From: Elusimicrobia bacterium GWB2_63_22
GTDB lineage: Bacteria > Elusimicrobiota > Elusimicrobia > Elusimicrobiales > UBA9959
Direction of reading: 5' to 3'
Length of the DNA stretch: 64,000 nucleotides
NCBI GenBank assembly: GCA_001799735.1
Contig: MGUA01000011.1
Coordinates: 1 to 64,000 of the forward strand
Each line of letters begins with the position of its first letter. The first letter of the stretch is position 1. Made by a program: the position numbers and the translations under genes. This document shows, one piece after another, positions 18,598 through 34,126 of this stretch. The notes beneath the pieces are model-generated. The model saw only the letters and a list, made by a program, of their open reading frames with translations, ran no database searches and was not told where the DNA came from.

Positions 18598-18960
18598 TCA
18601 GGCCAGCAGGGCTGAGACGGTGCTGATAAGCTCTTCTGAATTAAAAGGCTTTCCAAAGCAGGCCTGTATGCCGTGCCGAGCCGCTGTTTCCAGCAGCTCT
18701 TCGCTGGTCAGAGAACCGCTTATCAGCACCGCTTTCGTATGCTTGTCGCTTCTTTTTAGTTTCCTGATAAGCTCCGTCCCTTCTCCATCCCCCAGGTTGA
18801 AATCGGTGATGATCAGGTCAAAAGCGTTGGCGGCAGTCAGCTCCAGGGCCTCGGTCAGCGAAGCGGCCATGGAAACGGCGTAGCCCCCCGAGGAGAAGAC
18901 ACGGGAGTACAGCTTCCTCATGGAGGCTTCGTCATCTACGATAAGCAGCGTCTTGGCCAT
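18598..18960 (-). CDS. Stand-alone response-regulator receiver protein
   Basis: 120 residues, one CheY-like receiver domain: acidic Asp9/Asp10, phospho-acceptor Asp53 in ITDFNLGDGEG, Ser81 and Lys104 in GKPF. There is no output domain, so it must act by protein contact. GGAGGA precedes the ATG. Its upstream region carries a copy of the sigma-type promoter motif shared with the divergent ECF sigma gene, so the two are probably co-regulated. No kinase is adjacent. Confidence 0.9.
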   Translation of the reverse strand: MAKTLLIVDDEASMRKLYSRVFSSGGYAVSMAASLTEALELTAANAFDLIITDFNLGDGEGTELIRKLKRSDKHTKAVLISGSLTSEELLETAARHGIQACFGKPFNSEELISTVSALLA

Positions 18961-18971
18961 ATGTCCTCCAA

Positions 18972-19006
18972 GGTTAAGACGCGCGGCGGGGCAAAAAGGT
19001 TTAGCC
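18972..19006 (-). promoter_or_regulatory. Candidate ECF promoter of the receiver gene
   Basis: Minus strand GGCTAAACC (19006-18998), a 17-base spacer, then GTCTTAACC (18980-18972). The first block differs by one base from GACTAAACC at 19033 and 20654 and the GTC falls at the same spacing. Confidence 0.6.
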
Positions 19007-19032
19007 GCTTTGTTTAATATAATTTAGCGGGG

Positions 19033-19067
19033 GACTAAACCAAACCCCGCACTTGGGCGTCAGTATA
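19033..19067 (+). promoter_or_regulatory. Candidate autoregulated promoter of the ECF sigma gene
   Basis: GACTAAACC (19033-19041), a 17-base spacer, GTCAGTATA (19059-19067). The promoter at 20654-20688 is the same in both blocks except for one base, at the same spacing. Confidence 0.7.
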
Positions 19068-19079
19068 CTTGTGGAAACA

Positions 19080-19649
19080 ATGACCAGAACGGAAAAACCA
19101 GCGGAGAGCCCGGCCGGGCAGGAAGAAGACGTGCTGAACCGGCTGGTGGCGGAGCACCAGCGGCAGGTGTATTCCCTGGCGCTGCGCCTCACCGGCAATG
19201 CCGCCGCGGCGGACGATATAACGCAGGAAACTTTTATTTCCGCCTGGCGTCACTTAAAAGGCTTCCGCGGCGAAAGTTCTTTAAAAACCTGGCTGCTGCG
19301 CATTGCGGCCAACAAGGTCCGCTCCTACTGGCGCTGGAAAAAGCTGCGCTCCTGGGTGGGGCTGGGAACCAGGGACGAGGACGGGGAGGGCGCCGCGTTG
19401 GAAGACCTGCTGCCGGACGATCCGGCAGGGCGCCCCGAGCAGGCCGCGCTGGCAGCCGATCTTGAACGCCGCGTGCAGAAGGCCATAAACCTGCTGCCGA
19501 CGCGACAGAGGGAAGTGGCGGTGCTGAGGGCTCAGGGTTTGGCGCTGGCCGAAATAGGCGCAGCGCTGGGAATGGCCGAAGGTACGGTAAAAGCACATTG
19601 GTTCGAAGCCAGGCGCAAACTTGAGGTTTCCCTGGGGGAATATTTATGA
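19080..19649 (+). CDS. ECF (sigma-70 region 2/4) RNA polymerase sigma factor
   Basis: 189 residues. Region 2 (about 22-90) includes HQRQVYSLALRLTGN and DDITQETFISAWRHLKGF; region 4 (about 130-180) includes LPTRQREVAVLRAQGLALAE and the recognition helix AEGTVKAHWFEARRKL. The linker between them is acidic. I chose ATG 19080; GTG 19071 and TTG 19053 in frame would be inside or next to the promoter. Its stop overlaps the next gene (ATGA), as usual for a sigma with its anti-sigma. Confidence 0.9.
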   Translation: MTRTEKPAESPAGQEEDVLNRLVAEHQRQVYSLALRLTGNAAAADDITQETFISAWRHLKGFRGESSLKTWLLRIAANKVRSYWRWKKLRSWVGLGTRDEDGEGAALEDLLPDDPAGRPEQAALAADLERRVQKAINLLPTRQREVAVLRAQGLALAEIGAALGMAEGTVKAHWFEARRKLEVSLGEYL

Positions 19650-19945
19650 AAGACGAAGAGAAAGAGGAAAGGCTGGTCTCGCTGCTGGCCGCCCGCCGGA
19701 GCGAAGCTTTCTGGGCGGCCCAGCGGGCGCGCATAACCGCCGGCGCCCTGCAAAAGAGCGGACCGGCGCGCGCCTGGCTGCTGGCCCCGGCGGCCGCCGC
19801 GGCCGCGTTGCTTATCGTACTGCTGGCCAAACCCCGCTTGCCCGTCCCTGCCCCGGAAACCGTTGTCAGTACCGCGTTCCTGGAGCATCTGGACCTGCTG
19901 GATGATATGGACGTGCTTGAGGCCGTCTCAGAGGAAGAGTTATGA
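19646..19945 (+). CDS. Putative anti-sigma factor, single membrane span
   Basis: 99 residues with a charged cytoplasmic N-terminus (MKDEEKEERLVSLLAARRSE), one membrane segment (about 45-61, WLLAPAAAAAALLIVLLA) and a periplasmic tail with acidic LEHLDLLDDMDVLEAVSEEE. Position, translational coupling to the sigma gene and topology argue for the anti-sigma role, although there is no zinc-binding HxxxCxxC motif. The periplasmic tail resembles a segment of the next protein (LDFFSDFELLSNLEILEN). Confidence 0.65.
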   Translation: MKDEEKEERLVSLLAARRSEAFWAAQRARITAGALQKSGPARAWLLAPAAAAAALLIVLLAKPRLPVPAPETVVSTAFLEHLDLLDDMDVLEAVSEEEL

Positions 19946-20244
19946 GGAAAAGATACCTGACTTCGCTGCTTGGCGTGGCGCTGGCCGCGGCGGCCATGGC
20001 CGCCGCCGTTAACGCCCCCGCGGAGGTGATCGACAACCTGGATTTTTTCAGCGACTTCGAGCTGCTGTCCAACCTGGAGATCCTGGAGAATGACGGTCCG
20101 GACGGCGAGCTGGCCGTCCCGGCGGGCGGGGCTGTCCTCTCGACCGCAACTTTTACCGCGCTGGTTTCCACGCGCACCGTAGCCATCTCGTCCGGAACCG
20201 TCGCACTGTCAACTTCTACGCGGAGGCCTTATGAAAAGCGCTAA
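19942..20244 (+). CDS. Small exported protein of the ECF operon
   Basis: 100 residues with a signal peptide (residues 1-23 or so, ALAAAAMAAAVNAPA), then an acidic hydrophobic segment VIDNLDFFSDFELLSNLEIL and a Thr/Ser/Val-rich tail. It is coupled to the anti-sigma by ATGA. The LDFF/LEIL pattern echoes the anti-sigma periplasmic tail, so the two may interact; that is inference. The family is unknown to me. Confidence 0.6.
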   Translation: MRKRYLTSLLGVALAAAAMAAAVNAPAEVIDNLDFFSDFELLSNLEILENDGPDGELAVPAGGAVLSTATFTALVSTRTVAISSGTVALSTSTRRPYEKR

Positions 20245-20650
20245 CTATATCTTAATGATCGCGTTCCTTATATCCGCCGGAGCTCCCGTCTCCGCCGGCG
20301 AGGAACCGCCGCAGACCCCGAAACAGGCGGCCTGGGAAAAACTCCCGGAAACGGAAAAGGCCAGGGTGCTGGCCAACTATGAAAAATGGAAAGGCCTGGA
20401 CGAAGAGAAAAAGGCCGAGATAAAAGAGAAATTCGTTAAATTCAGTTCACTGCCTAAAGAGCGGCAGGCCGAGCTCCGTTCGCGCTGGGCCCGGTTTCAG
20501 ACCATGCCGGAGGGCGAGCGCCAGAAGCTGCTTAAAAAATTTAAAAAATGGAAACAGCTCTCCAAAACGCGCCGCGACGAGCTGCGCCGCGAGTACCGGC
20601 AGCAGAAAAAATCCGAAAGGCGTTCGGGCGGCGGCCGGGGGCGGCGCTAA
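20231..20650 (+). CDS. DUF3106-type exported repeat protein
   Basis: 139 residues with a signal peptide (cleavage near VSAGE). The mature part has four helical units of about 22 residues with the pattern W/F-x-x-L-(6)-L-x-x-x-F/W (for example KWKGLDEEKKAEIKEKF and KFSSLPKERQAELRSRW), then a basic RRSGGGRGRR tail. This matches DUF3106, found beside ECF sigma factors and related to Spy/CpxP-like periplasmic helices. It overlaps the previous gene by 14 bases. Probable role: periplasmic stress chaperone or metal binder. Confidence 0.75.
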   Translation: MKSANYILMIAFLISAGAPVSAGEEPPQTPKQAAWEKLPETEKARVLANYEKWKGLDEEKKAEIKEKFVKFSSLPKERQAELRSRWARFQTMPEGERQKLLKKFKKWKQLSKTRRDELRREYRQQKKSERRSGGGRGRR

Positions 20651-20653
20651 GGC

Positions 20654-20688
20654 GACTAAACCTTTTGCCTGCCAGCGGGGTCAGTGTA
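20654..20688 (+). promoter_or_regulatory. Candidate ECF promoter of the charged-protein gene
   Basis: GACTAAACC (20654-20662), a 17-base spacer, GTCAGTGTA (20680-20688). Both blocks repeat the sigma gene's own promoter. It lies 37 bases before the ATG at 20726. Confidence 0.75.
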
Positions 20689-20725
20689 TAGAGCGGCATG
20701 GGCCGCAGTAACTTAAGGAGGACTT

Positions 20726-21277
20726 ATGAAGACCAGGATAATGAGCATAGCGGCCCTCAGCCTTGTTTCTGTTTTTTTCGCGGCGGCGGCAGTAAGCGCC
20801 GAGGATGCGGTTAAAGAGCAGGACAAGCTGCAGGTGCAGGACAAGCTGCAGACCCAGGAGCAGGCGCGCGAGAAGGTCATGCTGAAAGATGGTTCCGGGG
20901 ACGGCCTGGAGACGAAAACCAGGACGCGCGCCCGCAAAGGCGGGGAGAACGCCAATGGCGAGGCCGCCCGCGAGCGGGCCGAGAACGCCGGCGAAGAGAA
21001 ATCTCTTAAGACCGGCCTGGACCGCGCCGATGAGGCCGCGGGCGAGAACGGGCAGCAGGGGCGCGATACGGCGCGCGAAAAGCAGGGTAATGCCGGCGAG
21101 GAGAAGGCGCTGAAGAAGGCCGAAAAAGCCGGGGCGAAGGGCGAAAAAGCGCTGAAGAAACAGGAGCGCAAGCAGGAGAAGAAGGCCGTGAAGGAACAGC
21201 GGCGCGAAAGGAAGCAGGAACGCAATGAGATCCGTTCAGAGAAGCGCCAGGGTCGCCGCGGTGGCGGCAAGCGTTAA
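20726..21277 (+). CDS. Exported highly charged low-complexity protein
   Basis: 183 residues: a signal peptide (cleavage near AVSAED) and a mature chain dominated by Lys, Glu, Arg, Gln and Ala. A tandem QDKLQVQDKLQTQEQ opens it, Gly/Asn spacers such as GENANGEAARERAENAGEEK follow, and the end is nearly all Lys/Arg/Glu/Gln (KKQERKQEKKAVKEQRRERK). It should be a long helix or disordered polyampholyte in the periplasm. An ECF promoter and an AAGGAGGA site precede it, so it is probably a stress-induced output of the sigma factor. The family is unknown. Confidence 0.7.
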   Translation: MKTRIMSIAALSLVSVFFAAAAVSAEDAVKEQDKLQVQDKLQTQEQAREKVMLKDGSGDGLETKTRTRARKGGENANGEAARERAENAGEEKSLKTGLDRADEAAGENGQQGRDTAREKQGNAGEEKALKKAEKAGAKGEKALKKQERKQEKKAVKEQRRERKQERNEIRSEKRQGRRGGGKR

Positions 21278-21334: not shown

Positions 21335-22204
21335 ATGAAGAGACGGCTTGTTACCGCCTTGTTTTTTTTGTTCTCGGTTTCACCGGCGCTGGCCTATACC
21401 GACGCCGGCGGCAAGTACACCGCAGGGCCGGACGGCTACTCCGGCATCAACATCTTCGCCGAATGGGGCGACGACGACTATTATCTGCGGCCCTCGCTGA
21501 ACACCTACAGCAGTGACCTGTCCGACAGGAATTCCACTTATTCCCTGGGCGGCGGCCTGGACCGCGGCCGCTGGAGCGCCGGGGCCGAGCTGTCTTTCGC
21601 TCCCGAGAAGGACGGCTATACCAACACGGCCCTTTACGGCGACCTCTCCTGCAGGCTTCTGCCGGAGCCGGAGGAGGACGCGGCCCTGGAGGACGTTTCT
21701 CTCGGCGTCTTCGCTGGGTTCACCGCGCATGAAGACAGCTACGCGCTTTCCACCACTACCGTGTCCGACGGCGGCGGGCGGCGGCAGCCCGGCTCGGCGC
21801 TGAGTTCCGCCTTCGAGCTGGGGCAGACCGATTACGGCCTTACCGCGGCGGTAAAGCTCTACGGTATCCGGGCCAGCGGGCGTTTCTCCAAGACCAGCTA
21901 CGACAAGGATGTTACCGCTGACTCCCGCCAGCTGCCTGTGGACATCGGCAGCATAGGCACCAGCGGCTTTCCCGACACCGCGGTCTCCGGCCGCATCCGG
22001 CTGCCCGGCCTGCCCCTGGCCCCGGAAGCCGGCTACACTAAAACCACCTACCTGCTGGACCAGCCAGATTCCGAGTCCTTCACCGCCGGCTTGTCGCTGA
22101 AGGTAGGCGCCGCCGAGCTCTCGGCCGGCTGGGAAGGCTTTAACCCCGGCGGCGGCGACGGCAGGAGCAATTATTATTCGGTCGGGCTGACGCTGTCGTT
22201 CTAG
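21335..22204 (+). CDS. Outer-membrane beta-barrel protein
   Basis: 289 residues with a signal peptide (cleavage after SPALA) and about twelve alternating amphipathic strands (YYLRPSLNTYSSDLS, STYSLGGGLDRGRWSAGAEL and so on), ending in YYSVGLTLSF, a terminal Phe typical of BAM substrates. It follows the charged-protein gene by 57 bases with AGGGGAAA and no terminator between, so it probably shares the ECF promoter. The substrate is unknown. A terminator follows. Confidence 0.7.
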   Translation: MKRRLVTALFFLFSVSPALAYTDAGGKYTAGPDGYSGINIFAEWGDDDYYLRPSLNTYSSDLSDRNSTYSLGGGLDRGRWSAGAELSFAPEKDGYTNTALYGDLSCRLLPEPEEDAALEDVSLGVFAGFTAHEDSYALSTTTVSDGGGRRQPGSALSSAFELGQTDYGLTAAVKLYGIRASGRFSKTSYDKDVTADSRQLPVDIGSIGTSGFPDTAVSGRIRLPGLPLAPEAGYTKTTYLLDQPDSESFTAGLSLKVGAAELSAGWEGFNPGGGDGRSNYYSVGLTLSF

Positions 22205-34091: not shown

Positions 34092-34126
34092 ATAAGTAGA
34101 TGCAGAAAGGGGCAAAAGGTTTCAGG
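34092..34126 (-). promoter_or_regulatory. Possible ECF-type promoter of the TolC-RND operon
   Basis: Minus strand CCTGAAACCTTTTGCC (from 34126) repeats the AAACCTTTTGCC seen at 20658-20669, with ATCTACTTA following after a 16-base spacer. It resembles, less exactly, the sigma promoters at 19033 and 20654. Confidence 0.4.

Follow-up and report, generated by a model that had tools for sequence, protein, structure and literature searches.

Autoregulation is usual among ECF sigma factors, and both the definition of an autoregulated ECF sigma factor and the promoter criterion used here were taken from an earlier study (PMC8103513). Well-known operons of this kind are those of the E. coli RpoE-RseA and B. 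subtilis SigW-RsiW type, in which a two-domain sigma factor with a self-directed promoter of the AAC/CGTC type is followed directly by the gene of a small membrane protein. The same layout is found at a locus of Elusimicrobia bacterium GWB2_63_22, situated in the 64,000-nucleotide stretch of DNA that was analysed (the window). The features of this locus are as follows:

18598..18960, minus strand: stand-alone response-regulator receiver domain protein (PF00072, E 2.2e-22)
18972..19006, minus strand: predicted ECF promoter of the divergent receiver gene, GGCTAAACC-N17-GTCTTAACC (blocks 19006-18998 and 18980-18972; 9/9 loci with an intact receiver)
19018..19023, plus strand: TATAAT, possible housekeeping -10 for basal sigma expression
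19033..19067, plus strand: predicted ECF promoter of the sigma operon, GACTAAACC-N17-GTCAGTATA (blocks 19033-19041 and 19059-19067; 24/24 loci)
19071..19649, plus strand: ECF sigma factor gene (Pfam Sigma70_r2, Sigma70_r4_2; TIGR02937), start re-assigned to GTG
19646..19945, plus strand: P2, candidate membrane anti-sigma factor, role from position and layout
19942..20244, plus strand: P3, small protein that seems to carry a signal sequence; one acidic-leucine segment in it resembles the tail of P2
20231..20650, plus strand: P4, DUF3106 protein (PF11304, E 3.4e-15), apparently secreted, all-helical
20654..20688, plus strand: predicted ECF promoter of the charged-protein/barrel operon, GACTAAACC-N17-GTCAGTGTA (blocks 20654-20662 and 20680-20688; 23/23 loci)
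20693..20706, plus strand: hairpin GCGGC-AUGG-GCCGC, one base after the predicted +1 (20692)
20726..21277, plus strand: P5, charged protein, apparently with a signal sequence, containing EQDKLQTQDKLQ-type repeats
21335..22204, plus strand: P6, outer-membrane beta-barrel with a predicted OmpG-like porin fold (AlphaFold2 model)

We consider it very probable that these features form one autoregulated switch, in which an ECF sigma factor reads three promoters of its own locus, P2 is its anti-sigma factor and the positive feedback acts through a leaderless sigma transcript. The sigma factor (19071-19649) would recognise RCTAAACC-N17-GTC(A/T)GTA in front of its own operon (sigma, P2, P3 and DUF3106), of the charged-protein/barrel operon and of the receiver gene. 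P2, most likely a membrane anti-sigma factor, would keep sigma inactive as long as no envelope signal arrives at the conserved extracytoplasmic tail of P2; the released sigma would then increase its own expression and that of secreted and outer-membrane proteins. Its transcript would begin at the GTG codon, the upstream TATAAT would probably supply a basal sigma level, and through the receiver the switch may be linked to a phosphorylation pathway. Of this model, the motif with its positions and conservation, its restriction to the locus, the gene content and the fixed GTG are read from the sequences, whereas recognition by this sigma, the transcription starts, the role of P2 and the nature of the signal are inferences.

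The sigma protein (189 residues) belongs to the ECF group (group 4) by its domains, as it consists of the sigma2 and sigma4 regions only (Sigma70_r2 at 22-86 and Sigma70_r4_2 at 130-181 according to Pfam, with a linker of <50 residues) and has no sigma3 domain. Its TIGR02937 match exceeds the cut-off, and its sequence matches structures of the ECF class (P. aeruginosa-type SigH, SigW, CnrH, RpoE). The P2 gene overlaps the sigma stop codon and is kept in 22 of the related loci described below as well as in the more distant genome G006. P2 comprises a short N-terminal part, a single hydrophobic segment and a C-terminal tail, FLEHLDLLDDMDVLEAV, which is the best-conserved part of the protein. Because P2 has no Pfam or NCBIfam match, and hence none to an anti-sigma family in these collections, its proposed anti-sigma role rests on position and layout. 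The C-terminal tail (19880-19942, plus strand, HLDLLDDMDVLEAV) looks like a segment of P3 (20030-20090, plus strand, NLDFFSDFELLSNLEILE), with which it perhaps shares a binding partner; since a profile comparison gives this weak similarity a probability of only about 11%, a decoy role of P3 remains an idea.

P4 matches PF11304 (DUF3106) with 56.8 bits against a cut-off of 24.3, and 24 homologues could be aligned. Its AlphaFold2 model (pLDDT 78) has six helices following the signal helix and finds neither a PDB fold match at E < 0.001 nor a meaningful sequence match. P3 and the DUF3106 protein presumably act outside the cytoplasm. P5 has no Pfam match. For P6 the model (14 strands, pLDDT 80) predicts a porin-like barrel with OmpG as the best PDB match (E 2.1e-8, TM 0.59/0.64). 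The first-pass annotation had spoken of periplasmic repair proteins at this locus; this label is a guess, as among them only DUF3106 has a family name.

The promoter motif and its conservation in Elusimicrobia

Read directly from the sequence, the three strong motif copies which the first-pass annotation had reported before the sigma, charged-protein and receiver genes are present at the positions listed above, each with a spacer of 17. The pattern CTAAACCN{15,19}GTC (CTAAACC-N15-19-GTC) matches 3 times in the window, where 0.41 matches are expected; as many as 3 occur in 2 of 100 shuffles. In the 3.06 Mb genome, spacers of 16-18 give 7 matches versus 5 for a reversed-pattern control, and with one mismatch allowed there is no excess (76 versus 97 in the control). 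These scans were pattern searches, which weak promoters with several mismatches would escape. Apart from the clustering, the single-genome statistics are weak and only modestly beyond chance. A genome scan had been suggested as a check of the motif; by its own-genome counts it gave little, and the motif stands instead on its clustering at the locus and its conservation across relatives. Because a one-genome count proves little beyond clustering, the test must be comparative, and the comparison proves decisive. The contexts of the exact sites elsewhere in the genome were also read: the match at C37:5536 overlaps the start region of a gene that resembles cytochrome bd subunit I and is encoded on the opposite strand, C39:143607 is situated where an outer-membrane-like ORF ends, and two sites on C22 are identical copies with a spacer of 16. 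All of these were taken as chance matches.

Orthologues of the sigma factor with 67-83% identity were collected from about 21 Elusimicrobia genomes, together with a relative of 51% identity (L059); the locus L104, where only the first 53 sigma residues matched, was included. Six genes travel together in this group, encoding sigma, P2, P3, the DUF3106 protein, the charged P5 and the barrel P6. One motif recurs ahead of the sigma gene and of its neighbours: allowing at most one mismatch in CTAAACC, CTAAACC-N17-GTC is found upstream of sigma in all 24 loci (the window included) and upstream of the P5 operon in 23 of 23. At these two promoters the mean pairwise identity is 0.95-0.96 for the -35 box and 0.94-1.0 for CGTC, compared with 0.37-0.45 for the spacer and about 0.35 for the upstream flank. 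CTAAACC and CGTC are kept in the 24 sigma promoters, while the P5 site of the window reads GGTC, not CGTC. The divergent receiver is intact in 9 loci, and all nine have the motif on the minus strand. With a scoring matrix trained on the relatives only, the window being left out, the three sites score 31.4, 31.3 and 27.7; the next best site in the window reaches 9.4 and the best one in 8 randomised windows 12.1.

Three loci represent stages of decay. In L040 the receiver is truncated but its promoter is kept, in L053 just 61 residues of the receiver are left and the minus-strand site is not intact, and in L104 an intact promoter is followed by the first 53 sigma residues only, the downstream cassette genes being absent. 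G006, a genome of a different genus with just 29% sigma identity, shares the gene order and carries related promoters. The cassette would be an old-established one of the autoregulated ECF sigma type, here with DUF3106.

Predicted transcription starts and the start codon of the sigma gene

In ECF promoters the G of GTC is placed at -12, which was used to set +1. The predicted starts are 19071 for sigma, 20692 for P5 and 18968 for the receiver, within 1-3 bases of those forecast by the first-pass annotation (19070, 20695 and 18966).

The predicted sigma start 19071 is the G of a GTG codon. This GTG lies 12 nt after the G of GTC in 21 of the 24 loci, with the frame kept and no Shine-Dalgarno sequence; the exceptions are L104 (13 nt), L059 (ATG at 11 nt) and L051 (GCG). 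The 29%-identical sigma of G006 has an ATG at exactly 12 nt. In G139 (L162, sigma 34%) an ATG follows 11 nt after GTC, but as it is out of frame this genome does not support leaderlessness. This geometry predicts a leaderless sigma mRNA. Leaderless genes also seem to be ordinary in this organism, as is suggested by a survey of 464 kb of its genome (the window and L241-L260), where TATAAT-like hexamers peak at -12/-13 of candidate starts without Shine-Dalgarno sequence (15 and 14 versus about 5), which points to such genes being common.

It is unlikely, although conceivable, that the GTG is not the start and that a downstream ATG is used after a very short leader, with GTGGAAAC being kept, for example, for promoter melting or as early transcribed sequence. 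In most loci an ATG does occur at codons 3-6 downstream of the GTG, and in L051 the GTG position is taken by GCG. However, the position of the ATG varies whereas the GTG is fixed and in frame, with 193-195 codons from GTG in most loci; L056 offers no alternative start upstream of codon 27, in L059 and G006 an ATG is found close to the GTG position or exactly there, and the short leader has no Shine-Dalgarno sequence before the downstream ATGs. We therefore keep the GTG as start.

An exact TATAAT is found upstream of the sigma -35 in 15 of 24 loci versus 0.3 in shuffles, at a distance to the ECF -35 that varies among loci. This suggests a second, housekeeping promoter for basal expression of the sigma gene. 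A tentative extension, for which we would claim only a small chance, is a switch gated by translation: the TATAAT promoter would give a sigma mRNA that has a leader but no ribosome-binding site and is translated poorly, and sigma's own promoter a leaderless, GTG-starting mRNA that is translated well. If true, autoregulation would act on RNA amount and on translatability, giving a sharp response at a single locus.

The hairpin in the P5 leader recurs as well. Since MAFFT misaligned the hairpin leaders, stems were scored sequence by sequence; L043, cut by the split rule, counts as 0. A strong stem (score 13 or more) is present in 14 of 23 P5 leaders versus 0.9 in shuffles, and in L045 and L047 GCGGC/GCCGC is replaced by the paired changes GCGGT/ACCGC. 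The hairpin may serve as a 5' stabilising stem.

Extent of the predicted regulon and the TolC-RND promoter

The pattern CTAAACC-N16-CGTC was searched in 59 genomes of the family. The 22 genomes with a sigma orthologue have 49 matches, 44 at the locus and 5 elsewhere, and the 36 genomes without one have 9; the single match in the remaining genome, G012, is the fragment locus L104. For comparison, a control with the spacer one base longer gives 13 matches in the 59 genomes. Because the off-locus rate is equal with and without sigma (0.23 versus 0.25 per genome), the regulon detectable with the CTAAACC motif is confined to its own locus and comprises three promoters, while weaker or divergent targets are possible. 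The system therefore looks like a small stress switch running only its own gene cluster.

These counts also bear on the question of which sigma factor reads the motif. The genome encodes 9 sequences matching this sigma at E <= 0.001, thus about eight paralogues, and recognition by the sigma of the locus is a prediction, so that a real motif could belong to another ECF sigma factor. We regard this as very improbable: the motif matches track the presence of this sigma gene across genomes, genomes lacking it keep other ECF paralogues yet show only background matches, and autoregulation is the usual ECF arrangement (PMC8103513). The sigma encoded at the locus is thus kept as the putative reader.

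The regulon predicted by the first-pass annotation comprised the sigma/DUF3106 operon, the charged-protein/barrel operon, the receiver and perhaps an efflux pump. The first three carry the conserved motif; the pump has to be removed, because its promoter is of another class. The looser site before TolC consists of CCTGAAACC (34126-34118) and ATCTACTTA (34101-34093) on the minus strand with a spacer of 16 and without GTC, and on the relatives-trained matrix it scores about 6, which is background. A conserved CTAAACC-N17-GTC tied to the presence of sigma was not found there. The promoter is nevertheless real: TolC orthologues in the genus share an upstream TGAAACTTT-N12/13-GCATCTCATTAG, including those of genomes lacking sigma. 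The relaxed class pattern TGAAACTTT-N12/13-GCATCTNA has 52 matches in 32 genomes and none in the control. Genes behind it encode TolC, a YgaP-like rhodanese, a second rhodanese, a glutaredoxin/thioredoxin-like protein, thioredoxin and OsmC, and in the own genome also NuoA. Sites of this class were seen at 34093-34126 (minus strand) and in L199, L212, L214, L217, L219 and L237. They probably represent a second conserved ECF-like promoter class with a thiol/redox regulon. That sigma heads a wider envelope-stress regulon including the TolC-RND efflux operon is hardly credible, for although TolC has a conserved ECF-like promoter and its gene is located in the same region in several genomes, its -35 (TGAAAC) and -10 (GCATCT) differ and persist without this sigma, its motif is common to redox genes elsewhere, and the motif of this sigma shows no excess outside the locus.

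Comparison with known systems

In the literature collection that was searched there was no paper on DUF3106 and none clearly describing an ECF regulon in Elusimicrobia. As far as we found, the targets P5, P6 and receiver, the footprinted motif and the leaderless geometry are undescribed. The locus pairs a sigma factor with a footprinted promoter motif and three predicted start sites, and leaderless expression of a sigma gene could be tested cleanly on it. It also links DUF3106, a protein not yet studied, to a putative ECF envelope switch, and the neighbouring efflux pump is set apart into a distinct, apparently thiol/redox promoter class.

An ECF-type sigma gene followed by the gene of a small protein that apparently has one hydrophobic segment, and then by DUF3106, is also found in Comamonadaceae (L261); Elusimicrobia are therefore not alone in having this core arrangement. 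There, however, the small protein is unlike P2 in sequence, the operon continues with an RDD-like membrane protein, and P3, P5, P6 and the receiver have no counterpart. We know of no characterised member of this gene order.

In leaderless genes of Deinococcus-Thermus a -10 TANNNT adjoins the ORF and acts as a classical -10 region (PMC12340547). Here, too, the -10 stands directly before the start codon without a ribosome-binding site, and the genome has TATAAT at -12/-13 of Shine-Dalgarno-less starts; unlike in those genes, the sigma gene uses a predicted ECF promoter with GTC at -12.

Compared with operons of the RpoE-RseA and SigW-RsiW type, P2 stands without a match to a known anti-sigma family and no site-protease genes are seen in the operon. 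The sigma mRNA, further, is predicted to be leaderless, and in contrast to these systems the regulon appears to be confined to one locus.
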